Below are positions 1,863-54,640 of a DNA stretch of 64,000 bases, one piece after another (the stretch's first letter is position 1; every line of letters begins with the position of its first letter). A model generated the notes under the pieces. The model worked only from the letters and a program-made list of their open reading frames with translations. It was not told where the DNA came from and searched no databases. Both the position numbers and the translations under genes were made by a program. Origin of the DNA: Tetracentron sinense (taxonomy: Eukaryota; Streptophyta; Magnoliopsida; Trochodendrales; Trochodendraceae); NCBI GenBank assembly GCA_015143295.1, contig CM026573.1, positions 5,072,434 to 5,136,433 on the forward strand, written 5' to 3'.

Positions 1863-4800
1863 TGTAATGACTCAAAATTTTAATATATTAAATTATGGGT
1901 TTTTAGGTCATTAACTGCGATTAATTAGTTAAGTAATTGATAATTTTGTAGAAAGTGAGTTTTGTTTGGGATTGGGTTGTACCAATAAAAGTCCAGTGTT
2001 TTGTTTTTTGAAAATCACACACAGTGTACTGGGTAGTTATCAGGACGATCACATGTCGTACCAGTTCCATCGCGTATCGATTCGTGAGACTGCAGAGGTG
2101 TTATGTGTAAGAAAATCAAGAAAACAGGAAATGTACAGATTTCTGAAGTTCAATTGGGACTCCATATCTATTGAAGATTCTAATAGAAATCCATGAGGCT
2201 CATACCATCACGTGTCGGTAGAACCTGTGGTCAACTGTCTGTTATTTTGGCAGTTCATCATCTCATATGAAGAAACGGCAGCATGTTTTGTGTCCGAAAT
2301 CAGAAAATTAGTCGGTTTATAGTTTTTGTACAGACTTGCTTTTAACTGTCAAAACTCAGTATTTTTTCCTAAAATTTCTACAACATGTGTCGAACTATCC
2401 CAAGTTCGGTCACCTGAAGTTTCGCCAAAATCGGACTTCATTTAGTAAGGTTTCAAAAACCATATGCGTAAGAAAAACTGGGAAAAAGTCAACCGATCAA
2501 ACCCGTTGACTTGGTCAAAGGGGTCACATCACCATGGTCATGTGCCTAGCACATGACCCTTGGCCTATATAAGAGGGCTAAGCCTCCCTCATTCTCACGG
2601 TTTGCACAAACAGAGGAGAGTGCTGCACTAGAATATCTAGAGAGAGAAATTCTAGAGAGATAAAGAGAAAGAGAGAAAAAGAAGAGAGAGAGAGAAAATG
2701 AGAATCCATCTTAGGGTATTTTGATGTCCCTGACGCGTTGGTGACGTCCATTTTCTCCCCAACGCCTCGATCGACATGTAGAGAGAGAGAGAAAAAGTTA
2801 AAGAGATAAAGTAAATGTTTGAAGGTGATGAGCTTCACCTTGAGGTTGATCGTCCTCTCGAGCGCGTTGGCGGTGTTCATTTCGGCCCTAGACACTTCGA
2901 AGTACGTGAAAAAGGAAAAACTCCTTCCATCTCCATCTCTTCTCTTTTTTCCTCTTATTTTGTTATATTTTGTATGTGGAATGAATGTGTGTGTTTTGGC
3001 GTTGATGAAAAAGGGTCAGAGACCCCGTGGACGTTGTATGAGAAGGTGGTGGAACATGGACAAGTGAATAGAGTGATATAGTCTCAGTCTAGGGTGTAAA
3101 ATCCTGGATTTAGGCTCACTGTGTGAATGACGTGGATGAAAAAGGGTCGGAGACTCCTATGTGATGTGTGAAAGAGTTGGACGTGCGTGTAAAATCAGTA
3201 GAGGGATGTAGCCCTCGGTCTCGGGTGTTAAAAAACCCCGGATTTAGGCTCACTATGTACTGAGCGACCGATCGCCAGTACCCAGACTTGCCTATTTGGG
3301 CTGTGATAAGACTTGAACTTCATGTGAACCTTCAAGGAGTCTCGATCGGGTCCCGGGTATGATGGATCGTCACTCTAAGGTGACAAAAAGTTGATTTGAG
3401 TGTTGTGTAAGGCGATGGACACCTCAATTGGCTTAGAAACGTTCCATAACGGAATGGTATGTTATCAGATTTAGTCTACTGGTGCGAGGCCCAACTGTTT
3501 CAGTTAATCAAGCGAGGCTTGGGTTAACTGGGATTACTCGGTTGTTAGAAAATCTAACAAAGGTTAAAGTATAATCCTCCGTGACTGATAGTCGGGAGTG
3601 GGTGAATTATTATCCATAAATTTTCTTTGACTAGGTCAGAAGTGGTGATGTCGTATAGTCCTCTGTGACTGATAGTCGGGAGTGGGTGAAATAATATTCA
3701 TACATCCTCTTTGGCGAGGTACGTGATTGATCATCGGGAGTGAGTGTAATAATGTCCATAGATCCTCTTTGGCGAGGTACGTGATTAATCATCGGGAGTG
3801 AGTGGAGTGTTATCCATAAATCCTCTGTGGCTAGGTCTGGAGTTGTGGTGTTAAGTGAGTCCTCTGTGACTGATAGTCGGGAGTGAGTGGATTTGATATT
3901 CATAGATTCTCTTTGGCTAGGTTTGGAGTGGTGTTGTTGTGCTAGTTCTTCATGATTGATAGTCGGGAGTGAGTGAAATTGATATCCATAAATCCTCTTT
4001 GGCTAGGTCTGGAGTGATGATATGATGTAGTCCTCCATGACTGATAGTCAAGAGTGGTTGGATTTGATATCTATAGATTCTCTTTGGCTAGGTCTGGAGT
4101 GGTGGTATTAAGTGAGTCATCTGTGACTGTTAGTCGGGAGTGAGTGGATTTGATATCCATAGATCCTTTTTGGCTAGGTCTGGAGTAGTAGTGTTATGTT
4201 AGTTCTCCGTGACTGATAGTCGGGAGTGGATGAAATTGATATCTATAGATCCTCTTTGGCTAAGTCTGGAGTGATGGTATGATGTAGTCTTCTATGACTG
4301 ATAGTCGGGAGTGGGTGGATTTGATATCTATAGCGGTGGTGTTATGTGAGTCCTCATTGACTGATAGTTTGAAGTTAATGGATATGTGATGTCTTTGATA
4401 GAAATGCCGTGAGAACGAGTTCCCCACCGTGGATGAGATCAGATGATTTGTGTTGATTCTATGGGTGAATGCCGGATGTATATTAAGTCTAAAGACTCAA
4501 GGTATAGTTTGAATGAGTGTAGGTCCAATTGGTTAATAAGTGAGTGTAGGACTCAGGTGTAAAGGTTGTACACAAGTGAAGGTCCAGTCGATCGAGTTTG
4601 TGGACTCGAGAATAAGGTATGAGTGGTTATCTAGATCGATAACCTGATGTCGTGGATAATGATTGGATGAACTTAAAAAATTAGAGGTCAAAAATCTCAG
4701 TTAGGGTAAAATAGTCCTGAGTGACCTCGGGTCACGAATTACGATATTATATATTATTATAATATGAGAATTGTGTTGTAATACGATATCATTATTGATG

Positions 4801-5114: not shown

Positions 5115-5530
5115 CGTTATGAATACAAATTTGTTGCAGGAGAGTGGAATGAAAATTGAACCATACAGTCCACACCAATATAGAAATCTCTAAAAAAACA
5201 CAATAAATAGGAACATAGCAAGAAATTTAACAAAATTTATACAGAAAACACCTTTAAATATAAAATAACAAAACAATTAAGAATATATTGAAATGGATTC
5301 AAGAAAACTCGAACATTGATAATATATCACTAATAAATATTATAATGAACCCTTACCATTGTAAGGGATGAATCAAGTCCAACAAACAAGAGAGTGGTCG
5401 GTTTTTGAATGAAGGAGTCCTTCATTTTCAAAAATTACGCGACATAACGTGAATAATAAAGAAAACTGTGTTTTCTCTATGCTATCTTTCGCACAGAAAG
5501 AACATGACATTTTGGTCCATTTAAGCTTAA
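5115..5530. other. intergenic, no gene seen
   Basis: AT-rich sequence between the solo LTR and a MITE. No open frame, RNA motif or repeat border was recognised. Confidence 0.4.
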
Positions 5531-5783
5531 GGTGGTGTTTGGTGGCTCTAATCTAAATAGGTAGAACTTATTTGAAAATTATGCTTAGTTGTACTTTAGA
5601 TTGTTAAGTGGTAGGATAATTGCATGTTTACATTTTTTTAAAATAGATATTTTTACAATTAAAATCTCAATTTCAAAAAGATGTAGACATGTAATTAACC
5701 TTTAACTTAATAGTTTAAAGTCCAACTAAACACAATTTTCAAATAAGCTATACCTATTTAGATTAGTGTTACCAACCGTCACC
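5531..5783. mobile_element. Tourist-like (PIF/Harbinger) MITE
   Basis: A 253-bp foldback element. The left end GGTGGTGTTTGGT and the right end (reverse complement GGTGACGGTTGGT) form terminal inverted repeats. The complementarity continues inward so that almost the whole element can form one hairpin. It is flanked by TAA on both sides (5528-5530 and 5784-5786), the 3-bp duplication typical of PIF/Harbinger MITEs. It lies about 480 bp upstream of the CDT2 start. Confidence 0.8.
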
Positions 5784-6134
5784 TAAGTCTCACATACTTT
5801 GGGGGACTCACATACATGTGATCCAAAAAAGTTATTTGAAATTGACAAAATAAGACAATTCCGGGCCTATATGGGAAAGAGGAGTGCTAGCCCTACTCTC
5901 AGTCTTAGTCTTAGTCAACTCCTACTCTCATCCTCCACCAACCATTTGTCTCTTAAAACACTCTCTCATCCAAAAAGTGGATAAGTGGTTCGTAGAGAGT
6001 GAGAGTAGGGATTGGCAAAGAGTACGGATAGCATTCCTCATTTGGGAAAACTTCCGTATATATTTTATTTTTCGTATGCCGGCAAACACATAATCATTCC
6101 CCAACGATAGCCCCACCTCCCTCACAATTTTAAA

Positions 6135-6259: not shown

Positions 6260-9200
6260 ATGGAAAGCTCGAATCCTCCATCATTCTTTCAAGATCTCAA
6301 GTCAAGGGAACTCAATGGATTCAGAGGTGTTTCACCATCTCTATTGTAATTCGATTCATTTCCACCCTAATCTTGATTTCATATCTGATTACGATCCGAC
6401 TGTTTTTTCTTCCATTTTCAGTACGAAAACGGCCCTATTTCGGCGATCTATCGTCAGATTCCGGTGGATTTGGTGCCGGAGTTCTAGCTATCGAACACGA
6501 CGGCGACGAAACACCTCCCTTGGCTGTTTCATTCTGCAAGGTAGGTTTTTTCTTTGCCTTTTATCTCCCCCAATGCTGAAGAGTTTAATTTATAGAAATT
6601 AATCTATACTATTTATTTATTTTAACTACCAATTTTGCAGGAGGTGAGAAATTCTCATTTTCTTGCTGTTTCCGACGAGAGTGGGTACGTTAGTATCTAC
6701 GATACTCGTCGAAAGCTTCCTTCTTCTGCCTCTTGCCGAGAAAACCCAGGTTCGATCTATTCCAATTAATCTAGGGCTAAGATTTTGATTAGTTGATGCT
6801 TCATTCTTTTCCGTCCATTTTTTTTACTGGGTTTATGTTCATATGGGTTTCAGCGGAAGCTAGGGTCAGCGATTGGATTGCGCATCAAAATGCCATTTTT
6901 GATATATGCTGGATCAAGGTACTTTACTATCTTTTTGTTCATCTAAAGTCATTTTTAGTGTATTTAATATAGGGAAGTGACAGTGTGTGTGAGTTGTAAG
7001 TGTGTGTTCTATATATGTTACCAAAAAATAAAGCTCTTTATATTTAGTTCCACATCGGTTTTTTTTTTTTTGTTAGAGGGTAAACAAGAACACTAAACAC
7101 TAACAAAAACAGCTGGAGAGTTCCTGGCTGCCAAAATAGATCTGCAATGCCAAGGATTAAGCCGCTGCGGAAGGAAGTTGCGAGCTGAACTGAGACCTAG
7201 GCTGTGTCTCGCCAATTTGTGAGCATAGATGTTGGATTGCTTGGGAAGGTGAAAAGTAGCATGGTGAGGGATGCTTTGAAGGTCCTTCCGAACGTCTCTC
7301 ATAGAAGCCGAAATTTCCGCAGGCTCTTTGATGTTGGGATGTTGGGTAAGCTTCACTAGAGCTTCAGAGTCCGAACCAAACTCCACCTTTCTCCAACCAT
7401 TCGTGACAGCAAGGGAGGTTGCTAGCCGAAGAGCAGCAGCTTCAGCTCTCAGCGCCGAGCCACCTCGGATCCCTTGAATAATGCCCTGAGTAATCATCCC
7501 TCTATGATTTCTCGCAATGGCTTCTGCACCTGCCAGATGACTCGCGGAATTATAGGCTCCATCCGAGTGGATCCTCAGCCATCCAGGTTGAAGAGGGGGT
7601 TGAGAATTTCTCGAAGAGGAGGGGGATTGCTGGACTCTCACCTAGTTTTTTTATCTTATTTTCTTCCGCCTGTAAACACTCCCCAGCTAGCTTCTCTGCC
7701 ATTTGGATTATCTGCGTCGGGTTGGGGGGAGTCTCTTGGAAGATTCTGCAGTTCCAAGCTTTCCAAAGTTTCCAAATTATAGCTGCACATCGAGTCAAAT
7801 AGTTGCTTTTTTCATTATCATTCAAATTCATATTCACCCAAAACTTCCACCATTCTTTCAAGGATTTATTTTGACTGTGATCAGTTCGGAGAGAAATAGA
7901 GGATCCCCACTACACTCTTCTAGCTAAAAGGCACTCAAACATGAAGTGAGTAACGTCCTCTACTTGATTCCCACATAGGTTGCAATGAGGGTCAATAGGA
8001 ATTTTTCGCCTATGGAGTGCTTTACTAGTGGGAACTGCTCCCCAAAGGCAGTGCCAAATAAACCATATGATCTTGTGCGGAATAGGCAATTTCCATAATG
8101 TCTTCCACTCCAAAAGAGATAAGGAGTTAGAGGAACCAGGCCCCTCTCCCTTCGTGGAGTTGCTTTGATCCCGTTGAGCATGGTAAGCCGAACGAACCGA
8201 GAAGTTCCCATTCTTTTCAAAGTGCCAGACTAACTCATCACATCCATCTTGGTTACTGTACTGGATTCTTGTGATCGCCTTGATTTCTTCTTGGTTGAAC
8301 CCAAACAACAACCTATCCCAATACCAATCCCCCACTTCCAAATTTATGAAGTTTGCAACTTTAGTCCAATGGCAAGAAGTCGGTTTTTTGAAGATTGCCT
8401 GAAAGTTAGCTAGAGTGGGGATCCAAGCATCCTTCCAAGGATTGATGGCCTTACCGTTACCTAGATTCCACCTAAGACCCAGGTTGAGCACCTCCCGTCC
8501 GGTTGAGATGCTTCTCCAAGCCCAGGATGGGTGAGCCCTAGATGTAGCTGAAAGGAAAGATCCCTAGGAAAATAGATACTTTTGGCGAGGTGCCCCCAAA
8601 GCGAGTTTGGATTCTTGATAAGGTTCCACCATTGTTTTGCAAGTAGGGTATTATTTAAGGAGACCAAGTCTCTAAAGCCGCCACCTCCACCCGCTTTGTT
8701 CTCACACATTGTCGCCTAGTTGAATCAGTGAATCTTCCTTCTAGTGTGGTCTTGGCCCTACCAAAAGTTTGCCACTTCGGAGTTGATATCTTTGCAAAGT
8801 TTGATGGGTAACTTAACAACTCATGGCATAGGTGGGGATTGATTGCGCCACAACTTTAATTAGGACGTGTCTCCCTGCTTTGTTAAGGTATTTTCCTTTC
8901 CAAGTTTGGAGTCTGCTCACCACTCGGTCCTTGATAGTGGAAAAGAGGTTCGCTTTAGATTTCCCAAACACCGATGGAAGCCCTAGATACGTCCTAGATC
9001 CTTTAATAGTCTTGATTCCCATCATTCTGCTAATCATCTTTTGAATCTTGCTCGGAGTATGTTTGCTAAAGATAATTCCAGATTTGTTGGAGTTGATTTG
9101 CTGCCTTGATATCCTTTCAAATTTGTTGAGGAGCTCCTTAACATTGCCTGCTTCTTGAGGGGTGGCCTTGCAAAAAAGAATGTTATCATCAGCAAAAAGG

Positions 9201-12200
9201 CTATGAGTGATAGTCGGGCTCGATCTCCTAATTGTTATCTCAAAGATGACCCCTTGGCTTTTGGCCCTATCAATCATGTGGGATAAAAAATTAGAGGCCA
9301 ATATGAAAATATAAGGAGAAAGGGGATCCTCCTGTCTTAGCCCTCTGAAAGGGGAAATGTAACCCTTAGCTTGTCCTTTAATAAGGATAGAATAGTTGAC
9401 GGTTGTAATGCATTGGATAATTAGTTGGACCCATTTATCACAAAAGCCGCTTTTTCAAAGAACTATTTTGATAAAACCCCATTCCAACTATTCATAGGTT
9501 TTGTTCATGTCAAGTTTGATAGCGATGTTCCATTTGGCCTTTTTCGGTTGGGTTTTCATGTGGTGGAGCATTTCATGAGTACTGTATACATTCTCATGAA
9601 TGCTCCTCCCAGGAATGAAAGCACTCTGAGAAGGATGCACTATGTGCTCCATCATATCTTTCATGCGATTAACCAAAATCTTAGCAAAAATTTTGTATAA
9701 AACAGTGCAGAGACTAATAGGGAGCAACTGTCCTATGTTTTGAGGGTTGGGCACTTTTGGAATCAACACGATATGAGTAAAGTTGGTTACTACTTTCTTC
9801 ATGTACCCTTAATAGCCCCACGAATCCTCTTTTTGAGGGTTGCGTGGGTGCTGTGCTTTGCTGCACTAGTGTGTGTGTGTGAGTTGTGTAAGAGCATCTC
9901 CAACCCTATCTCTAAAAGTTCCCTATTTTTAATCTAAAATGAAGTGTTAGATTTTTTAGGAACCTTCTTTTTCTACTTGCAACTCCAATCCAAACTCCCT
10001 ATTTCTTCCCTATTTCTATTAAATACTAATTTTTTATTTTTTTGAATGAGATGACACTCAACAATCTTAATTTTTGGAAAACAGTAATTTTTCCAATGGT
10101 CATATTTTTATAACGGTCATTTGTTTTCAAATGGTCATATCTTTTATAACGGTTATATTTTAATGGCCATATCTATTCAAATTTATATTTTAACGATCAT
10201 ATTTTTTTGAATTAGATGACACTCCGATTATAAATAAAACAATTTCCTCTCTCATTTTCATCCATCACAACTCATTTTTCTCTCAACAATAAAAAAACTT
10301 AGTTGTGTCTCAATTTTATTGATCATTTTCTCTTTATGGATCACAGCCTTCTAAACAATACATTTTTTGGAGATCTTGAAGACTCTGACAAAGAGTTGGA
10401 GATCAACGAAAGGGAAATGAATAGAATGTATCTAGGGTGGTTATCGAGAACGGATTGACTTCTTCTTCATCAAATGAGTTTGGATCATCGCTCCAATCCA
10501 TATTCTATCTCTTAAAGAAGAAGAATATTATAAAAAATTGGTATATCAAAACTAGTGAAGAAATTGATTTTGGTATACCAAAGACAGTGAAAAAATCAAG
10601 AAAAAAAGAAACACATTTGAAGAATTTAAAAAAATTTTGGTATACCAAAACTAGTGAAGAGAACAATTCACGGTTGAACACATTTTAAGACAGCAATGAG
10701 TGGGAGGAACATTACTGTTGAGAGAGCCGTTTACATTTAGCCGTTGAGGGAGTCAGATTTTAAAAGCTTTTTAGAAAAGTAAAAAAAAAAACATTAAAAT
10801 ATTATATGGTGGAAGAGAAATGCTCGGCATCATTGCTTATCAAAATCCAACGCACTCCCTAAAGTCAACAATATCGGCAAATTTATTAGCTTTTTCAAAA
10901 AAGCTTGCTCCAACACACTCCCTAAATTGGAACGCCATTTTACCGAAAGGGATTTTGTTCGGCAATGATGCCAAGTGTTTCTCTTCCGTCATATAATATT
11001 TTAATATATATTTTTTTACTTTTCTAAATAGCTTTTGAAATCTAACTCCTTCAATGGCTAAATGTAAACGACTCTCTCAACGGTAATGTTCCTCCCACCC
11101 ACTGCTGTCTCTTTAGAATGTGTTCAACCGTGGATTATTCTCTTCACTAGTTTTGGTATACCAAAATTTTTTAAAATTTCTCAAATGTGTTTCTTTTTTT
11201 TATTGATTTCTTTACTGGCTTTGGTATATCAAAATTGATTTTTTCACTGGTTTTGATATACCAATTTTTTTTTTTAAATTCTTCTTCTTTAAGGGGTAGA
11301 ATATGAATTGGAGCGATGATCCAAACTCGTTTGATGAAGAAGAAATCAATCAATTCTCGGCAACCGCCATAAATGCACTCTATTTATTTCCCTTTCGTTG
11401 ATCTCCGACTCTTCGTCGGAGTCTTCAAGATCTTCCAAAAACGTATTGTTTAGAAGGTTGCGATCCATAGAGAGAAAATGATCAATAAAGTTGAGACACA
11501 GCTAAGTTTTTTTGATTGTTGAGAGAAAATTGAGTTGTAATGTATGAAAATGAGAGAGGAAATGGTTTTATTTATAATCGGAGTGTCATCTAATTCAAAA
11601 AAATATGACTGTTAAAATATGACCATTTGAATATATATGACCGTTATAAAAGATATGACCGTTTGAAAACAAATGACCGTTAGGAAAAATATGACCGTTG
11701 GAAAAATTACCGTTTTCCAAAAATTAAGATTGATGAGTGTCATCTCATTCAAAAAAAATAAAATATTAGTATTTAATAGAAATAGGGAGTTTGGGTTGGA
11801 GTTGCTAGTAAAAAAAGAGGGTTCCTAAAAAATCTAACACTTCATTTTAGAGTAAAAATAGGGAACTTTTAGAGATAGGGTTGGAGATGCTCTAAGTATG
11901 TGTTCTAAATATGTTACCCCAAAAAAAAAAATATAGGGAAGTGATACTTTGTGCACAAACGGCCCTTCACATGCCCTTTTCCATTATTTAAAAAAAAAAA
12001 TCATGATTAAGTTTAACTAATATGAGGTTAATATATATATATTTTAAAAACTAAGGTTAGATAGATGAACCCTAGGGGTGGGTGAATCTTAACCATAGTC
12101 GATGAGTATTAATTAACTTGAGGTTATTTTTCTAAAAATCAAGGTTAGATGGATGAACCCTAAGGGTAAGTGAATCTTAATCATAGTTAATGAGTGTTAA

Positions 12201-15200
12201 CTGATTTGAGATTATTTTTCTAAAAACTAAGGTGAGATGGATGAAACGTAGGGGTAAGGGAATCTTAACCATAGCTTATAAAAGTCAAAAGGTGAGATTG
12301 AGGATATACATTGATGTTTTTCTGTTGATCTCTCTTGGTTATTTTTGTATCTTTTTGCAGGAGGACACCCACATTTTGACAGCTTCAGGTGATCAAACTG
12401 TAAGTTACTCATTAATAGATGTACAAGTTTGGGTTAGAACTTAGAATTAGCTTATCCATTTGAAGAAACTAGAAGATTTAGCCTTTTGTTTCAAAGTTCT
12501 GGAAACAAGGTTATATTGTGCAGTATGTTTGTCTACTTGTAGTGAATGAGTCTTCATTTGGTTTATTTAGTTGCTTATTTGGACAGAAATTTGGAAAGTG
12601 ACTGTCTGCTTATGGTTCGACATGGAAACTACGATTATTGGATTAATGGAAACCAGAGACACATAATTCAAAGATATATTGATATTTTCAACTATGATTA
12701 GAAGCCTGGTTTGCAGAAGAATCACCTATCTTTGAACTTTAGTTGTATTTCATAAGCTATATTGCCTTTACATATACGTAAATGTATCGATCAACATTGG
12801 CCAATAAAATCAAAACATAGTAATGTCAGTCCCATTGTGTAACGGGTAAGGAATTATATAAGTTACTGGACTAAATTACCTCGTGGAGTTACTTGGACAA
12901 ATCAGTATCAAATAGAATCCTATATTGATAAATAAATTACATTTAGGACTAGTTCTTTTCTTAGACCAACTGTTGTGAATTATTCCCCCTTTGACAGATA
13001 AAGACATGGGATGCGGAGACAAAGAAATGTATTGTAGTCATGGCGGGCCATACAGGAAGTGTGAAAACATTGAGTTCTCATCCATCTAGTCCTGGTAGGC
13101 ATATTTTTTTTTCTGCATGGTTGCTTTCCCTGCAAGTATTTCTTTTGTCATCAAGAAAGGATACAATGTCTAATTGCTGAAAGTATTTATTTATTTTTGT
13201 TTGAACAGATCTCTTTGTCTCTGGTTCGAGAGATGGATCTTTTGCTTTCTGGGACTTGAGATGTAAGACTGGTGACACAAATAGCCATGAGGAGCCCTGC
13301 TTAACGCAAGTTTCTACTATGCTATCAAACTTCTCACTTTATTTAATCATAATGAGTTGATTAGGCTTGTATTCACTTTTGAGTATTGTTTTAATACTAC
13401 TCTTCAGCTCAACTGCTGTGGTCAAAGGGGCTCATGTTTCAGCTCAAGGAAAAAAGAGTAGACGTCGCAAGGTTTGCCCCTCAATACTGGTTTTTTAGTG
13501 GTGACTAATTAGACCATGTTGTATTCACTATTGAAGCTACAGTCTTTTCAGGCGGCTTCAATGAGTATCACATCAGTTCTTCATCTCAAAGATGAGGTTT
13601 CTATTGCTAGTGCTGGAGCAGTGGATAGGTCAGTGAGCCCTGCCAGATATTTTTCCTTGAATCAAGTGCAGATTTCTTCTGTTAGAAAATAATTTGTATT
13701 GATGCTTCAGTAATATTGAATCTTTTCCTTCACGTATTTTTTTGTGTATTGGTTCATTTCAGCGTAGTGAAATTCTGGGATACTCGAAACCTGAAAGCCC
13801 CAATTGCCCAGGCACATCCTCATCTTCAGTCCTCAACCGAAAAGGTCAACTACCTTAAAACACATACTTTTTTTATTGCACATTGAATAAATAGATAAAC
13901 AACAAATTCCTCTGAGATGTGTTGAGGTCATCTCTTCACATCAGTGGATCTTGAGAGTTGAGAACTTGAGATATGTGCTGGGTGAACTGGTTTTGGCTGT
14001 CTGCAAAGATTGAGTGAAAAGAATCAGACTGCAGATATATTGAAGTTAGAGATTAGAGGCAGATTTACTCAGCATATGGAGTTTGATCCACCTGAGGTGG
14101 ATATATAAATGTTACAGCTCTAAAAAGTGTTCAATTTTTTGAAGTTTCAGTAAATTTTGTGAAGTGCTGGGCATGTCGAGCATGTTTGATTTTTTTCCCT
14201 CTCAATTTCAGGAAAGAAGGTTACACGGAATATCTTGCCTATCCCAAGATTCAAATGGTGTGTTTCTGTCAGCATCCTGCATGGACAATAGGTATTTCAG
14301 GTCCTCTAACCTTTGTTTTTCTTCTCTGAAAAGAACATTATCTTCCGCGCCAAGTAGCATGCACACTTTTCAACACCAGTAAACGATTTGGGGTTGAGTT
14401 CATCCCATTTACTGTGTTGGGTTGCAACTTGCAACCTTGGGCTTGTTGGTACAATCCCAGCACTGAACTGTAGCCTGGCTTCTAAACACACGCTTGCAGC
14501 CATGCACCAAATAAAGGTAATAAAAGGAAATTGTTGAAGAAATTTCTAATCAAGGATTTCATTGTTTTCCCTATCAGGATTTACTTGTATAATGTGCTTC
14601 ATCTTGAAAAGGGTCCTGTGAGAACTTTCTCTGGCTGTAAAATTGAGACATTCTATGTGAAGGTAAGCCTTTTTTTAATGGTTAGTTCAAGCACCAAAAC
14701 TCAAGAGAGCGAGTGTAGTTGTGTTTCTCATGTCCTAAAATTTGAATTTTATTGCAGTCAGCAATTAGCCCAGATGCAGCTCACATAATTAGTGGCTCTA
14801 GTGATGGAAACACCTACCTATGGCAGGTTCTTATTTGATTTGATTTATTATTATTATTTTTGGAAATTGTGTTTTCCCCTTTCTGGTTTCTGTTTGGTTT
14901 GGGTATAACTTGCCAACATGTATTATAACAGGTGAAAAAGCCTCAAGTAGAACCCGTCACATTGAAAGGACATGAAGGAGAAGTTACGGCAGTAAATTGG
15001 TATATTTATTGGCAAAAGGCAGTGCTGATCTCAAGTACCACTTTCTAAACTGTTGTTTATATCGGACTTCATCTATTTTTTGCAGGTGCCCATCTGAGAT
15101 TGGAAAGATAGCAACTTCTTCCGACGATTTCACAGTAAGCATGCCCAATTAGTGAATCAAGTACACCATAATAGTTTAATCAAATCCATGTACCATAGAG

Positions 15201-15817
15201 TATCCTGTTCACTTAATACTGGTTTGGCGGCATCTACCATCCACACATGTTAAGCTTTGTTGCTACCTTCCAAAAAATCTTCACATATAGAACATGAAAT
15301 TTCTCTCGAGTCTGGACTAACCTCAAAAATGCTCACAAACATGCCTGAGGAAAGAGTAACTACACTGCATCTCCCATGTATTTATATCTACCGATGTTTC
15401 CTAATCACACCAATGATGCTGTATGTTTGATAGGTCCGCATCTGGAACATTCAGAAGGGTTGTTGCCCTAGCACAAAATCTCCATCGTCCATTCGGAGAA
15501 GAGTAACAGCAATCCCGAACATGGAGTGTAGAAAGCTGTTCATGGACGAAGACCCAGCCGAACTCACAAAGGCTGCTGCCAGCAGCTCGCATCCTTCAGA
15601 AGTATTGAATGAAGTTTACACACCAGATCAGATTCAAATGCCTGAAATCAGTACTCCCGAATCGCTGAAGAAAAAAATTCCATCAGTTTCTTTTTTAAAA
15701 GAAGAATTAGAGATGGAAAAGACTCCAGAAGCTGCATTGAAAAGCCCATCATCTGTTCTGAATCCACCTTCCTCCTTGAAAAGAACAATCAGAGATTACT
15801 TTGTGGCCCCTTCATGA
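6260..15817 (+). CDS. CDT2: CDT2/DTL, WD40 substrate receptor of CUL4-DDB1 ubiquitin ligase
   Basis: Sixteen exons join in frame to 516 residues: 6260-6326, 6422-6540, 6641-6749, 6854-6918, 12361-12399, 12998-13094, 13209-13305, 13408-13471, 13552-13628, 13763-13844, 14212-14291, 14578-14662, 14758-14826, 14932-14999, 15086-15134, 15434-15817. The family, with CUL4-DDB1 and chromatin-loaded PCNA, targets CDT1 and other substrates for ubiquitination in S phase. The N-terminus carries the family block '[16 protein letters not shown]'. WD40 repeats follow from about residue 40 to 420, with two DDB1-contact WDxR boxes (WDLR near 182, WDTR near 251). A low-complexity tail rich in Ser-Pro ends in KRTIRDYF (505-512), like the PIP box of animal Cdt2. 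All introns are GT..AG except intron 7 (13306-13407, GC..AG). Intron 4 is swollen to 5.4 kb by transposons. A 3' UTR intron at 15900-15980 looks likely. Confidence 0.93.
7059..9805 (-). mobile_element. 5'-truncated LINE (L1-like), degenerate
   Basis: Read on the minus strand it runs from reverse transcriptase at the right to an A-tail (the T-run 7059-7071). RT motifs are visible: '[17 protein letters not shown]', '[13 protein letters not shown]', and FADD in '[10 protein letters not shown]' (a variant of YADD). Then come the 'GSRTYLGLP' block, a zf-RVT region ('[19 protein letters not shown]'), and an RNase H domain with catalytic D/E/D contexts (HSDGAYN, EAAALR, GSDSEA). ORF1 and endonuclease are absent. 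Several frameshifts and stops break the frame (near 9300-9490, 8710-8810, 8490 and 7640-7910). It cannot move by itself. A clear target duplication was not resolved because both sides lie in another repeat. Confidence 0.88.
9892..11892. mobile_element. 2,001-bp palindromic PIF/Harbinger-type element
   Basis: Ends are GAGCATCTCCAACCC and its reverse complement, flanked by TAA on both sides (9889-9891 and 11893-11895), typical of PIF/Harbinger. The inverted repeat does not stop at the ends. The left arm (about 9892-10850) and right arm (about 10950-11892) match in reverse complement almost throughout, leaving a loop of roughly 100 bp. Each arm holds the same fragment starting ATGGATC (10337 on plus; its mirror near 11470 on minus), which translates to an acidic '[15 protein letters not shown]' start before stops. 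This could be an N-terminal transposase piece, but no DDE domain is present. As part of a CDT2 intron it would be transcribed as a long hairpin. Confidence 0.85.
12030..12290 (+). repeat. 88-bp satellite, three units, in CDT2 intron 4
   Basis: GAATCTTAA recurs at about 12084, 12172 and 12260, each preceded by 'AGATGGATGAACCCTA' and followed by 'CATAGT..GAGT'. It is the same family as the array at 24950-25600. Confidence 0.8.
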
Positions 15818-16300
15818 GTTAGATGCTTATAGTTTTTGGGTTATCTCTTATACAGTATTTGCTGAAAGTAGGTGGCATGCCTTATTCAGATAATTTAGAG
15901 TAAGTTCATTCCATTTTCTCCTGTAATTCTTATTACACACTCAATGGTCCACTCAGTGATATTGGTTTGTGTTTCTGCAGGGTTGTATTTGAAATGTACA
16001 GGGGGATAATTGGTTATAATATCATATTCTAGGAGAGAATTTTGATGGGGCATATTGCGTCCTCTCCTCAATATTTTTGGGTCATTGTTGTAATAAGATT
16101 CAACTGTGGAGGAAGTAGTCCTTGTCCAGATTTATGAAAATTATGAACTTTGCATGTTATGAACTTCTATGTGCATTTTAGATGCACCCAAACTCATCCA
16201 GTATCATCTTTGAATGTGTTAACCGTGTTTTGCATTTTCCATGCAACTGGACAGTGCATTCAATTGGCAAAACAACCCATAACTAAAATAAGCATCAATT
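15818..16300 (+). other. CDT2 3' UTR and downstream spacer
   Basis: The sequence after the TGA contains a likely 81-bp 3' UTR intron: donor GTAAGT at 15900, acceptor TTTCTGCAG ending at 15980. AATAAG-like words near 16090 and T-rich stretches suggest polyadenylation near 16.1 kb. The end cannot be fixed without transcripts. Confidence 0.45.
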
Positions 16301-17771: not shown

Positions 17772-19892
17772 TCAACCAATCTCTTCACGGATTCTTTGAT
17801 TCATTAGCTGTTCAACTATGTGGAATCTTACAATTGGGATGTGTTTGATCTTGTAGTTGTCTCCTCCTCCATCAGGTTTCAACCTCTCTGCATGATCGTT
17901 GAGCAAAGGCAGCAAATCCAACTGCTGAAGTGTGGTGACAGACTGCAACCCTTCAGGAAGCATCCTCAGTTTCAAACAGTTATGGAAATGGAGGTATTTC
18001 AAGCTTGGAAGTGCTCCTTCCTCTAGCTCTGTCCATTCCTCCAGAACATGAGAAGCAATACTGAGAATCTCAAGCTTTGGAAATCCTCCTACCCCACAAA
18101 ACTCTTTCCCTATTTGCTTTGCATCATGGGCTTGCCAAAGGGAGAGATTTTTCAAGTTGGGTAGCAACTGAAGGACCAAAGCTGGGTTCTCAGATAGATG
18201 AGAGAAACCTAATCTTAGGTTGGTGAGACTTCCCATCAAGCCAAGCCATTTGGGTATCTTTCCTAGTCCCCCTTCCAGGCAAAGTTTTCTAATAAGCGGT
18301 GGAGGCGAAAATGGCTCCAAAGGAGGGAGTGTTCTCACTGGGAAAGAACTTTTTGCCTGTAGAGACAAGGACAGGAGACTCTCCATTTTCATGATAGAGG
18401 CACAGAGCTCACTTGCAACATTTTCTGCCACATCCATCACTCCCAGCCTCCTGAGTTGGATCAAGCTACCTAGCTCTCCGGCAATGCCATCACCGGCATG
18501 CAAACCGGTGAACGTCTGGAGGTTTTTCATCCTCCCTATCCCTGAAGGTACCTTTAATCCACAGACACCAATGTTTTTGAACATTTTAAGGTGCCTCAAT
18601 CCTGGAATTTTCAGTATTCCACTTGGTAATGCAGTTAACTTCCCACACCATCTGATATCTAGAGTCTGTAGGTTCCGAAGATTACTTAGACTCTCTGGCA
18701 GCTCAGTTAAACCGGTTTTCTTCAAGCCTAGATACCTCAGGTGAATCAGATCTCCTATTTCATCGGGTAAGCACTTGATGTTAGTCTCTTCTAGATCCAA
18801 GACCCGTAAAAGTTTTACCCCGTAAAATACTAGTTTTAGGCTTTCCCATCCCACTTCAGAAAGGTCTTTAATTGTAAACATGAATAGAGATCGAATTGGG
18901 AGAGTATTCAGGTTGGGAGGAATGTTCTTACTGTTGGAATGGATGGAAACACGGCGGGCGGTAGGAGGTATGTCAGAATCTGAACTAGTAAATGCAGTAA
19001 TGAAATCTTCTTCCTCCATCACACAGATGGTGAATTCCCGACAAGAACTGGGGAAACTGAATTTAGTCCCATTACCAGGATGTTGTTCTACAATTTGAAG
19101 CATTCCCAGGCTGACCAGTTTTTCGATATTCTGTTCTGCTATATCCTCCATAATCACTCCTGGTATTTCTTGTACCAAACCTTCGGCCACCAATAGCCGA
19201 ATCAGTCTCCCTTTAGGTATCCAGTACTTCTCAGGGAAGATGCAACAGTACATTAAGCAAGATCGAAGGTAATACGGTAAATTTCTATAATTTAATCTGA
19301 AATTAAAAGAGCATGATGCCTCACCTTCATCAGCTTTTGAAGAGCTCTCATTTTCTTCTTCCCTCCTCTCCTTCCCAGAGAAGTTGCAACAGTATCTTAA
19401 ACAAGATCCAAGATAATACGCTAGACTTGCAAAATTTAAACTGTGTGAAGAAGGGGACGATGTTTCACCTTCATCAACCTTGTAAGAGCTCTCCATGTCT
19501 TCTTTCCTCCTTTCTTCGGCCGCAGTTAAATTATCGAATTTAGACATACTATCAATAAATTCGGCAAGACGGGCATTTATCTTCTCCAATTCACTTTCGA
19601 AATGAGCTGTGGATGCAGTCCTGCTAGACCCATTTTGATTATACATCTGAATTATGAATTCATCAATACAGTCATCCATATCATGGACTATATCTCTCAG
19701 TTCTCGAACCCAACTATGAACAGCATCATCCCCTCCCGTTCTTCGGCGTATATCTCCAAATAACCATCCAATCTCATTGAGTATGCTCATAAGCCATAGA
19801 ATTTGATCTTCCAGACCTGAAAAAGTCTCAGGCTCTTGAAGTAATATAGAATCCAATCTCTGTAAGAAAAAATTCACCAAGGCATCTGCCAT
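17772..19892 (-). CDS. NLR-like CC / winged-helix / LRR protein lacking NB-ARC core
   Basis: Uninterrupted 706-codon frame; the start MADALVNFFLQRL is the usual beginning of Rx-type coiled coils. Residues 1-120 form an Rx_N-like domain with a variant EDVID motif (MDDCIDEF, 72-79). No P-loop, RNBS-A, kinase-2 or GLPL motif follows. The chain passes through an acidic Ser/Glu-rich linker directly into the winged-helix region (203-270: 'LPYYLRSCLMYCCIFP', 'RLIRLLVAEGLVQE'). The MHD position reads PSSCREF, so that motif is also lost. LRRs run from about 340 to 690. Residues 127-174 and 175-222 are a tandem duplication covering linker plus the SCLxYCC helix. The family mediates pathogen recognition. 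Lacking the ATP switch, this protein could be a decoy, a helper-dependent sensor, or a decaying but still open gene. It lies tail-to-tail with CDT2. Confidence 0.85.
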   Translation of the reverse strand: MADALVNFFLQRLDSILLQEPETFSGLEDQILWLMSILNEIGWLFGDIRRRTGGDDAVHSWVRELRDIVHDMDDCIDEFIIQMYNQNGSSRTASTAHFESELEKINARLAEFIDSMSKFDNLTAAEERRKEDMESSYKVDEGETSSPSSHSLNFASLAYYLGSCLRYCCNFSGKERREEENESSSKADEGEASCSFNFRLNYRNLPYYLRSCLMYCCIFPEKYWIPKGRLIRLLVAEGLVQEIPGVIMEDIAEQNIEKLVSLGMLQIVEQHPGNGTKFSFPSSCREFTICVMEEEDFITAFTSSDSDIPPTARRVSIHSNSKNIPPNLNTLPIRSLFMFTIKDLSEVGWESLKLVFYGVKLLRVLDLEETNIKCLPDEIGDLIHLRYLGLKKTGLTELPESLSNLRNLQTLDIRWCGKLTALPSGILKIPGLRHLKMFKNIGVCGLKVPSGIGRMKNLQTFTGLHAGDGIAGELGSLIQLRRLGVMDVAENVASELCASIMKMESLLSLSLQAKSSFPVRTLPPLEPFSPPPLIRKLCLEGGLGKIPKWLGLMGSLTNLRLGFSHLSENPALVLQLLPNLKNLSLWQAHDAKQIGKEFCGVGGFPKLEILSIASHVLEEWTELEEGALPSLKYLHFHNCLKLRMLPEGLQSVTTLQQLDLLPLLNDHAERLKPDGGGDNYKIKHIPIVRFHIVEQLMNQRIREEIG

Positions 19893-19989
19893 TTCTACAA
19901 TGGACAGGAGAATGACAGAAGAATTTTAGCTCATTCTCTCTTCAGCTTAATCATAGGACTTGTGTCTCTAAAGATCAGAGAGGATTGCA

Positions 19990-27083: not shown

Positions 27084-30000
27084 CTATTGCAAAATATATA
27101 GCTCTTGCTTAGATATAAAATAGCGTCCAATGACATTCCCTGGCTCCATAATGAACTGCTCTTGGAATGTTCCCATCCGTTTACTGGTAATATCAAGTGA
27201 TAGATCTTTGAAATTCGGCATACCATCTGCTTGTACCCCTTCTCCGCAAATAAGGAACTGGTTCCCAATAATAAAAGAACCCGATGCACGAATGGCAACT
27301 CCATCTTGGCCATGTGCACGACATTGAAGTTTTTCAACGACATGAACAAGCCTTTCAGGAGGCCAGTCACCTGCTAATGTTTCCTGGAGGTTTGATAATG
27401 TCGCAAAGATATCATTTGGGCCAACAGATAGTTTATCTGAGAAACTGGAAAGAAAGGAGGTGTATTAGTAAATGACAAAAGCCCCAATAACCTCAAATTT
27501 ACCAAAAGCATCATCTTGACAACCTCAAGTTCAAAACATTATAAATCAACTTCTACTACTAGCACTCAATCTAAGGAATAGATACCACCTGCTTTCTCAT
27601 TTATATTAAAACAGAAATCTCTTTAACTATTTCTAAGACCAAGAATTGCTTTGATTTTTGTCTAGAGATAGTAGAAGCTCCATGCAATTATACTTCTACT
27701 TAGCTTCATCTTTCCAAAATGACTAAATACATCTTTCACTTTGTGACAAATGACAGTAAAAAATGTCACTGTACATAGAGAATCGTACAGTACCTGAAAG
27801 TTGAACCTTCATTGTATAAGGTCTTTGCATGATGCCAAAGTTCATCAGGTCCATCAAAAAGTAAGTAATAGTGTATCGTAAGCATCTGATCAGGCAAGAA
27901 GAAGTAAATCAACATCCATTTTAACAGTTACGTAATAAAGATATGATAATTTTGGCTTTTGATAACACCAAATAAATGTTTTGCACACCTCTACTTTTTG
28001 TTATTATCAACATTTTGCCCACTTTTATCGGGTGTGTTCTCTAATTTTGACTACTGTTATACATATAATTTTAAAATTCCGCAGATTGGGCATCCAGAAG
28101 TACCCGTGTCTGACAGTTCATAGCCATGTCCAACAAAAACAGTGTCCACATGCCATACACCCAATTATATACATCTTATTTGATTGCCTTTACTTTTCTT
28201 CATTTACAAATTAACTTTTGCTTCTTGTCAAAAGATGTTATCACATTTTGATCAGAGAAAAAAAACTGAAAAGGAAAAGGACTCACATCTGCTAAATCTT
28301 TCATCCTTTGTGTTGGATCAAAAACGCTTTGGACGAATGCTGTTAAGTCTACATCTGCTTGCTCGTATTTAGTAATAAATGGGTGTGAAAGAAGCTGTGC
28401 ATCAATCAGAACCAGGAAATCATAAAATAACACAGAAAGTCAGAAAGAAAACTCATCATCAAAGAGTACAAAACACTATGTCCTTATCTAAGGGATCACA
28501 GCCGGATTAACATAAATTTTTCTATGATACAAAGAGAAGTTGGATACAATTCTAATAACTATACAAGGTTTTCCAGCTAATTGACATTTAAATGTGGAGA
28601 ATATATGTTGTATTTCTATCCTGTTGATATTCACATAAATAATGTCTTGTGGATGGGAAAGCAAGGAGGTTAAAAAATCCTGAAATAAAAGGAATGATTC
28701 CCAGTCCAGAAAGTCAGAAATACATTACAGAGCAATTTAGCAATATGGACTTAAATTTATCAAGCATCTTTTACAGGGAATCCCTGAAGGTACATGTAAT
28801 CCAGGCGAAAAAGTTATAAAGCATGATGGAAAATTTTCATGCATATATAGGATTAAAAAAAGGCAATGCAAAGATGGAAATTTTGGTTGGGTTTCAAAAT
28901 ACGATTCAAGGGAACTTCTAATTTAGAAGATATTAATCTCAGATTCATAAGTTAATGAGACTTATGAACATACAGCCAGGATACCAAATTCTTGTTGATG
29001 GAGTATGAAGACCCTACAATCCTGAGTTCTCGTTGCTGGAAAATGACAATAAAACAACTTTCCCTAATGCTATGTTTGGTTGCCGAAAAAATAGGCGAAA
29101 ACATAGGCAAAGAAAATAAATTTCAGATTTCTAATACAATTCTTATTTGTGTTTTGTCTAATTTTCTTTTTTTTTCCATGTTTTCACTTATTTTCTCAGC
29201 AACCAAACATAGGATACAGGATTTCTGTCCTCCAATAATATTAACATATCTTCAGCATTGAAATTGGATATCTCATCCCATGTAATGCCATGAAACCTAG
29301 TCCTAAAAGAAAGTCCCAAGAAATTATAGGACTGAAAGCTGAGGAAATTCTTGGTGAACCAAGGCACGGAAAAAATTATTGTTGTTCACGTTGAACCAGA
29401 ACTTAAAAGTATACCAAGAGGCCTTCATATTTTGGGGGTATCATTTCAATTCCAATAGCGCCACCAATGTCCACAATGATCCCTGTTAAGGACTCTGATA
29501 CTACTACAGCTGAGGCTGCTCTCTTGACATCTATAATTTTTGTTTATTCACTTATTTTTCTTTGCCCAACTTTAGCGTCATTGTTAGTTGGGGAATGAAA
29601 GACCCCTAACTCCTAAGTGCCCTATTAGATGCATAGTCACAAAAAACTGCGTTTTGTTGAAAAAAACCCATTTAAAACACGCATTAATACCCTACCGTAG
29701 AAAAAGGCATTTAAAACCCTTTTTTTGAATAAAACACGCATTATAGTTTTAAACCCGTTTAAGAACGAATAATACGAAAAAAAAGGGATAATCTTGAAAT
29801 TTTTTGAGAATGAAAATTATGCAGATATTGACGACTTTGATGCACTTTTGAGGGATTGATGAATATAAATGAGTGGTTTTATTAATATACGTATTTTAGT
29901 CAGTTTTTAATCCTGATAATTGATGTTTTAATGAAATTTAATGCCTTGATGGAATGAATTTGATGTTATGAACTTATTATTGTTGATTATAGTTACTCTT

Positions 30001-53561: not shown

Positions 53562-53840
53562 GGCCTTTTGGGCCTTTCCTTGGGTTAAACGGTCAAATAT
53601 AAGAAGAAATGGCACGAAATGGGGTGTGCTACTGCTAGCTTTAACGGTCTGCGTGGTAGGGTGATATATTACTCGTACACAATATCATAAAATAAAACGT
53701 AGCGAGTAAAAGAGAGGAACCTGGAAGGATGATTGGGTATTCTTTTTCGGGTTACTGTTGGAATGCAGAGATTTAATGGTTGCTTTCTTTGATTATGTGG
53801 AAGTTTCTTTTTTTCTAGTTTTCTATATCTTAATATAATG

Positions 53841-54082
53841 CTATGTTTGGTTGTTGAGAAATTAAGTAAAAACATGGAAAATAAAATAAAATTGGACAAA
53901 ACACAATTAAAATTTGTATTAAAAATCCATTTTTTTTTTCCCATGTTTTTACCTATTTTCTCAACAACCAAACATAGTACATGGAAAAGAAAAGAAAATT
54001 GGACAAAACATAACTAAAATTTGTATTAAAAATTTCTTTTGTTTTCCATGTTTTCACCTATTTTCTCAACAACCAAACATAG
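53841..54082. mobile_element. MITE of CTATGTTTGGTTG family with duplicated right half
   Basis: Left end CTATGTTTGGTTGTTGAGAA at 53841. The complementary right end (TTCTCAACAACCAAACATAG) occurs twice, ending at about 53975 and at 54082. A block of about 107 bp ('ATTGGACAAAACA'..'CATAG') is tandemly duplicated. Same family as 29070-29212. Confidence 0.8.
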
Positions 54083-54640
54083 CATTAAGTGTCTTCTCTT
54101 ATTACTGGGTTGATAAACTCTTATTACTGGGTTGATTATCAGTGCCTCTTCATATATGCATATGCATATGCATGAAGAGGAGTGCTAGCTCTACTCTCTG
54201 GTCTTTTCTCCTAGTTGCCTCATCCCTACTAGTTTGTGTTGGTTGTCAACACAAATCACGCTCCACCATTGTGGTCCATAACAACATATAAATGATTAAA
54301 GTCAGGATTTTGAACATTGTTATCCAAGATTGGGACAGGCAAGTAGCACGTCAATCCTCCTCTTTAGTTATCCAAGATTGGGACAGGCAAATAGCACACA
54401 GAACATGACATCCAACAGAATTATCATTATGTTTAACTTGACTTGATAAGGATCAATCATTCCCCCACCCCAAACGAGTTTTCATTTAGTATGAAATAGT
54501 GTTTCCATATTTAAAGTAAAAGGTGGGTAGTCTCATAAATACTTTCCATTAATCCTAATAGTTTATAACTAACCAATTAAAGACCAAGATTTGACTTGAT
54601 TTATTTTGTTTTTTCTAAGGCCACATCAACTTTAATCTTT
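54083..54640. other. intergenic, no gene seen
   Basis: Contains small direct repeats ('CTCTTATTACTGGGTTGAT' at about 54097 and 54118; 'TTATCCAAGATTGGGACAGGCAA' near 54320 and 54367). No gene. Confidence 0.45.

Follow-up and report, generated by a model that had tools for sequence, protein, structure and literature searches.

How plants first recognize a new transposon is still an open question, and one proposal is that the trigger is hairpin RNA made from an inverted duplication that arose by accident, with Mu killer of maize as the model case. As described in the available portion of PMC3440606, Mu killer is an internally deleted element in which both terminal inverted repeats (TIRs) derive from the mudrA side and in which mudrA is present as an inverted duplication; the same portion reports short antisense transcripts and questions the model of a hairpin produced by read-through. 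Elements of the PIF/Harbinger type require two genes and generate 3-bp target-site duplications (TSDs), according to the accessible text of PMC2836001, and their deletion derivatives have been attributed to abortive gap repair in PMC2213677, the available part of which mentions inversions and describes no full palindrome. Three further papers state that the rice gene EUI is repressed through siRNAs by an intronic MITE (PMC7145194), that mismatches lower the self-silencing of hairpin transgenes (PMC9263138), and that the hairpins predicted in maize genes are mostly intronic (PMC10760457). Among the titles and abstract openings listed in literature searches, we found no description of Harbinger palindromes with two 5' ends.

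Here we describe a non-autonomous Harbinger element that forms a palindrome and has a 5'-type end on both sides, located in a 64-kb stretch of Tetracentron sinense DNA (hereafter the window, meaning this whole stretch). Based on alignment and family matches, the element spans 9892-11892 (2001 bp, no strand assigned); its outer ends are both GAGCATCTCCAACCC and are bounded by a direct TAA duplication, which can be read from the letters at 9889-9891 and 11893-11895 (both plus strand). Arm 1 (9892-10848, plus strand) runs from this 5' TIR to the putative fold-back point, where it terminates with the TCC at 10846-10848, and arm 2 (10846-11892, minus strand) runs from its own 5' TIR to a 3' TIR without the last 7 nt, terminating in ..GGGAGTGCGTTGGA. 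The paired parts of the arms, about 950 bp each, are separated by a loop of 101 nt (10849-10949, no strand assigned), which is equivalent to the 3'-terminal part of the long copies described below and occurs a single time. Over arm positions 1-945, 840 of the 920 aligned columns are identical (91.3%; Jukes-Cantor distance 0.092), the 80 substitutions comprise 60 transitions and 20 transversions, and nine gap events span 36 columns; an alternative identity of 88.9% (866/974) includes non-homologous loop columns. The first-pass annotation, which had placed here a palindrome with arms of some 950 bp, Harbinger-type ends and TAA duplications, is borne out in all these respects, although its wording "near-perfect" is too strong for arms with this identity and this number of gaps.

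In a minus-strand self-BLAST of the window (matches of at least 120 columns), a single inverted repeat of 2054 columns was obtained, the runner-up having 262 columns, which excludes a chance palindrome. An artefact of the assembly is also disfavoured as its source, since arms that lie about 9% apart make a mis-join unlikely. A second copy of the CDT2-intron palindrome was not found in the genome among the 40 of 69 candidates scored. The ends of the arms may be conserved: columns 1-73 contain one difference (p 0.010, for a stretch chosen post hoc), and the wider stretch of the first 116 arm positions has five differences in 105 (p 0.098). The proportion of transitions to transversions between the arms (60:20) gave no signal when set against that between the family copies L010 and L033 (118:54, p 0.37).

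Sequence comparison identifies the family of this palindrome as PIF/Harbinger (Plant_tran/DDE_Tnp_4), dispersed across the 1.16-Gb genome. With arm 1 as query there are at least 47 genome matches, both arms included (40 of 427 candidates scored); all family copy counts are lower bounds, the candidates scored being 40/427, 40/69, 29/29, 40/70 and 40/324 in the different searches. The complete sequence was read for six long copies (2930, 3621, 2840, 3348, 4001 and 3629 bp), all six flanked by direct TAA or TTA duplications, and for four short copies of 345-385 bp, all four with TAA flanks; GAGCATCTCCAA stands at both ends, with at most two mismatches, in the ten family copies read. The transposase frame of the long copy L017 matches Plant_tran (E 1.1e-72) and DDE_Tnp_4, and a minus-strand frame of L028 matches the NAM-associated domain (E 1.9e-12); a Myb/SANT domain was not matched, and the L012 frame taken as the Myb-like part gave no Pfam family. 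In the six long copies read, no open frame exceeds 286 codons, the frames being counted without intron modelling. The Harbinger identity proposed in the first-pass annotation is confirmed by the TAA/TTA duplications, the Plant_tran/DDE_Tnp_4 transposase and the NAM-associated second gene, and the related family that it expected does exist, with long relatives (2840-4001 bp) that carry the same ends and direct TAA/TTA TSDs. Two short copies (L032 and L051, both on contig C17 and about 66 kb apart) are 98.6% identical, with the 3' end partly duplicated in each, and are probably the result of a local duplication.

Compared with the 3621-bp copy, each arm covers positions 1-541 and then position 3138 onwards. 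The corresponding internal deletion junction, which joins parent positions ~540 and ~3138, lies at 10399-10401 in arm 1 (plus strand) and at 11403-11405 in arm 2 (minus strand), and consists of a GAG microhomology common to both parental sides. A query spanning this junction gave 31 matches, and the junction is crossed by the two arms alone (29 of 29 candidates scored). Arm 1 retains, at 10336-10401 (plus strand), 22 codons that match the beginning of the transposase gene in the long copies (the counterpart in arm 2 starts at 11468, minus strand). At 10402-10501 (minus strand), it carries a conserved ATG and some 32 codons that may belong to a second gene (the counterpart in arm 2 starts at 11303, plus strand). 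The latter frame is also conserved in L010, L012 and L033, and may represent the beginning of the family's NAM-associated gene. The transposase-like leader that had been attributed to each arm is indeed there, as a 5' leader with some 22 initial transposase codons, the catalytic domain being absent from both arms; the arm frame 10425-10688 gave no family in a Pfam search. In an 18-sequence tree of the 5' region the two arms are sisters (support 83/73, the mark for strong support being 95/80; branch 0.0041), and a 37-row tree of 150-165 bp did not resolve their placement.

The centre of the palindrome suggests how the two arms arose. On the minus strand, arm 2 can be followed as far as ..TTTAGGGAGTGCGTTGGA, 7 nt short of the family 3' TIR end GGTGCTC, after which the strand continues TTTTGATAAGCAATGATGCC, a copy of arm 1 from the TCC at 10846-10848. 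These central letters (GGGAGTGCGTTGGA, then TTTTG..) are as expected if a GGA at the 3' end had primed on an internal TCC. We therefore favour, with a probability of roughly 0.7, a fold-back origin from a non-autonomous Harbinger element, followed by transposition of the palindrome into intron 4 of the host gene; the structure and the derivation by fold-back are well supported. In the proposed sequence of events, a long copy first lost its interior, as is shown by the deletion junction common to both arms. A break 7 nt from the 3' end of this deletion derivative would have been followed by its folding back at the 3-bp GGA/TCC microhomology, and the folded 3' end would then have been copied back through the element's own 5' end, leaving two 5' ends around a 101-nt loop; it is the letters of this single central junction, with 3 bp of microhomology, that point to the fold-back copying. 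The two 5' TIRs may subsequently have acted as a pair recognized by the transposase, so that the palindrome would have inserted at a TAA of intron 4, with the direct TSDs as the evidence that suggests transposition as a unit; the arms have since diverged by about 9%.

Neighbouring pairs in opposite orientation are common among MITEs, which speaks for another reading, namely that two separate elements made adjacent insertions in opposite orientation. Nevertheless, the centre has neither a TSD nor a complete 3' TIR, and one deletion junction, absent elsewhere, is common to both arms; we consider adjacent insertions very improbable and have rejected them in favour of the fold-back origin.

Besides the palindrome in the CDT2 intron, three further palindromes of the family were found, so that the genome holds at least four; neither these relatives nor the fold-back signature at the centre figure in the first-pass annotation. 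These are L030 (contig C37, 1979-2708), with a TTA/TTA TSD and a 3' end 13 nt short, L031 (C4, 1735-2422), with a TAA/TAA TSD and a centre made of a complete 3' TIR, TAA and then the inverted copy, and L050 (C19, 1546-2291), flanked by CAA/TAT (no clear TSD), where the centre contains 33 bp from the 5' region (positions 66-98), suggestive of more than one template switch. Copying in place would invert the right flank (TAA with TTA), so the direct TSDs present in three of the four palindromes argue for insertion as a unit, and the palindromic form has probably transposed, a chance agreement of the TSDs being possible. In the tree, the arms of L031 are sisters (98/86) and those of L030 are not, which suggests that the L030 palindrome may join two copies. 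L056, on contig C881, was considered as a transposed copy of L050 (C19:7098000-7102000) and discarded, because 4.1 kb of flank aligns at 88%, as in a duplicate of the locus, and gives no proof of movement; the flanks of these two loci combine the 88% identity with numerous short indels, a pattern that fits C881 being a redundant contig of this assembly with many errors.

The exon and intron numbering of the host gene comes from a model built by hand from plus-strand frames alone. In this model, exons 1-4 (about 6260-6325, 6421-6541, 6641-6748 and 6856-6918, plus strand) are followed by intron 4 (6919-12360, approximate boundaries), by exon 5 (12361-12399), which encodes a piece of a WD40 repeat, and by later exons up to about 15814. 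The palindrome lies in intron 4, as had been proposed, in a middle position about 470 bp from exon 5; this intron of 5.4 kb also contains a fragment of a LINE-type non-LTR retrotransposon (7093-9808, minus strand; RVT_1, zf-RVT and RVT_3). The frames encode a WD40 protein, of which a joined piece of 186 residues matches many WD40 proteins. Among the best 60 of its 513 matches, the PDB entry "Denticleless protein homolog" (9c5t; E 5.9e-26, residues 50-184) gives the longest such alignment, and other WD40 proteins outscore it (a dynein assembly factor, E 1.1e-31). The C-terminal frame, for which a Pfam search gave no family, ends in KRTIRDYF, which we take to be PIP-box-like, and this ending, together with the WD40 frames and the Denticleless match, fits a CDT2/DTL-like gene. 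An Rfam search of 6900-12400 returned no match, and a search for an empty site with 12290-16200 as query matched the window's own locus alone (one match), with no paralogue.

Additional repeats and frames were seen around this gene. Three tandem units of 88 nt (12042-12305; 100, 83 and 66% identity to the first) lie in intron 4 directly upstream of exon 5, and a 255-column inverted repeat (5530-5784, 79%), possibly another MITE, lies upstream of the gene. Downstream, on the minus strand, a frame of 717 codons (17772-19925) belongs to a resistance gene of the NLR type (Rx_N, WH_DRP, LRR_14), with no NB-ARC match in the Pfam search. A pair of related short inverted repeats, at 29067-29215 and 53836-54087, shows a mutual identity of 82%.

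If transcribed, the intron RNA is predicted to fold into a duplex of nearly 900 pairs. For the palindrome RNA (2001 nt), the predicted fold contains 883 arm-to-arm pairs and 18 helices of at least 21 pairs (G-U counted). Its energy is -1303.8 kcal/mol, against -388 to -408 for five mononucleotide shuffles; six 2-kb segments from elsewhere in the window gave -412 to -585. The fold of the whole intron (5435 nt) retains 877 of these arm-to-arm pairs, and the long duplex anticipated by the first-pass annotation holds, as a prediction. Strictly identical runs of at least 21 nt between the arms number 12 and yield 86 windows of 21 nt. Among the transitions between the arms, 38 still allow G-U pairing in the sense RNA and 22 abolish the pair (p 0.052), the corresponding ratios for the three other palindromes being 4:1, 10:9 and 22:23; this bias is at most a hint of selection for pairing, and it would also be produced by a strand bias of mutation within a transcribed intron. 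Concerning methylation footprints, the C-to-T changes in the arms (summed by hand, with 19 unresolved sites left out) affect 14 of 80 CG sites, 5 of 52 CHG sites and 17 of 446 CHH sites, an excess over CHH with p 3.7e-5 for CG and a non-significant p of 0.068 for CHG. The CpG observed/expected ratio is 0.77 for the element, 0.885 for L010, 0.441 for the LINE and 0.314 for the 3' part of the gene; a value above those of the LINE and of the rest of the gene does not indicate heavy long-term methylation of the element.

Regarding possible effects, we rank an inert or merely local element first, ahead of silencing in trans, with a silencing role being possible. The palindrome could simply be a fossil that is spliced out with the intron to no effect, a reading to which we give slightly less than even odds: it agrees with the position in the middle of a large intron that also holds a LINE, with the 9% drift between the arms and with the lack of an Rfam match in the intron, but a duplex of such length is a recognized Dicer-like substrate in plants, and the marginal 38:22 bias also counts against it. 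We regard as somewhat unlikely a local effect in cis, by which siRNAs from the intronic hairpin would direct methylation to the intron and thereby reduce or adjust CDT2 expression, in the way of rice intronic MITEs. The precedent of rice EUI, as given in the available text of PMC7145194, and the concentration of C-to-T changes at CG relative to CHH are in favour of such an effect. However, the decay at CG also fits gene-body methylation or events that preceded insertion, the CpG ratio of 0.77 exceeds those of the LINE (0.44) and of the rest of the gene (0.31), and short intronic TEs are often CHG-hypomethylated in rice, according to the same portion of PMC7145194. If the palindrome has any present consequence, the likeliest would be this local production of siRNAs with methylation of the intron, and not control of the whole family.

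It is improbable, in our view, that the palindrome is a natural silencer of the Mu killer kind, in which a hairpin in the CDT2 pre-mRNA would give siRNAs that silence Harbinger relatives in trans and would be kept as genome protection. The layout is that of Mu killer, in that the same end is present twice and the beginning of the transposase gene is duplicated in inverted orientation, and the G-U-keeping transitions would be in line with such a silencer. Additionally, perfect 21-mers of the palindrome recur in 21 of 22 family copies (14 to 134 per copy; L034 has none) and nowhere in the remaining 62,000 bases of the window, and 373 of the 1981 21-mers of the palindrome are present in at least one of seven long copies. 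Against these observations, the arms contain only about 22 transposase codons, and the frames are broken in the six long copies read, so that, with no frame above 286 codons (introns not modelled), the family may no longer contain an active target. The excess of 38:22 is of marginal significance and could also come from strand-biased mutation in a transcribed intron, 9% divergence with nine gap events does not amount to strong preservation, and the hairpin mechanism of Mu killer is itself disputed in the available portion of PMC3440606. The suggestion that the element acts in the manner of Mu killer is thus upheld for the layout, and not for a large or present-day role in trans, given the few codons and the broken frames of the long copies. 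More doubtful still is the broader proposal of a Harbinger counterpart of Mu killer, whose hairpin, expressed from an intron of a cell-cycle gene in dividing cells, silenced its own family in trans, and for which recurrent two-5'-ended palindromes would make transposition generate its own silencing triggers. A Harbinger family that gave rise, within one genome, to at least four palindromes with two 5' ends, one of them inside a gene of the expressed type, would show that such triggers originate in a defined way, through fold-back at the 3' end, and are able to spread.

Set beside the known systems, the palindrome in the CDT2 intron is a rearranged PIF/Harbinger derivative, with the 3-bp TSD of the group (9889-9891 and 11893-11895), a short TIR also present in the ten family copies read and, for the second Myb/SANT-type gene that accompanies the DDE transposase in such parents, a NAM-associated gene. 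It resembles PIF/Harbinger deletion derivatives and Tourist-like MITEs in its TIRs, its TAA/TTA TSD, its internal deletion and mobilization by a two-gene parent (PMC2213677 and PMC2836001, in their available parts). Unlike the deletion derivatives, the whole element is an inverted duplication with 5' ends at both sides; instead of one 5' and one 3' end, both outer ends are of the 5' type, and the sole 3' end is central and truncated. Tourist-like MITEs are usually below about 600 bp and of high copy number, a size that the relatives of 345-385 bp have, whereas the present element measures 2001 bp and is a single palindrome copy among the 40 of 69 candidates scored. The Foldback-like element Galileo of Drosophila has similarly long inverted arms, for which aberrant gap repair or template switching has been invoked, but it belongs to the P superfamily, has another TSD and TIR, and its arms are the long TIRs of the element itself (PMC4168063, accessible text). 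The MITE of rice EUI is likewise a hairpin-forming transposon within an intron, with siRNA-linked repression reported there (PMC7145194, available text), whereas the present element is known from its sequence. Finally, Mu killer is a MuDR element with about 1.3 kb of transposase sequence, whereas the present one is a Harbinger element with about 22 codons, lies in an intron of a host gene, is old (9% arm divergence) and has a hypothetical silencing role; even so, as far as the available portion of PMC3440606 describes Mu killer, both are internally deleted DNA transposons with two transposase-side ends, an inverted duplication of the transposase start and a proposed hairpin RNA.
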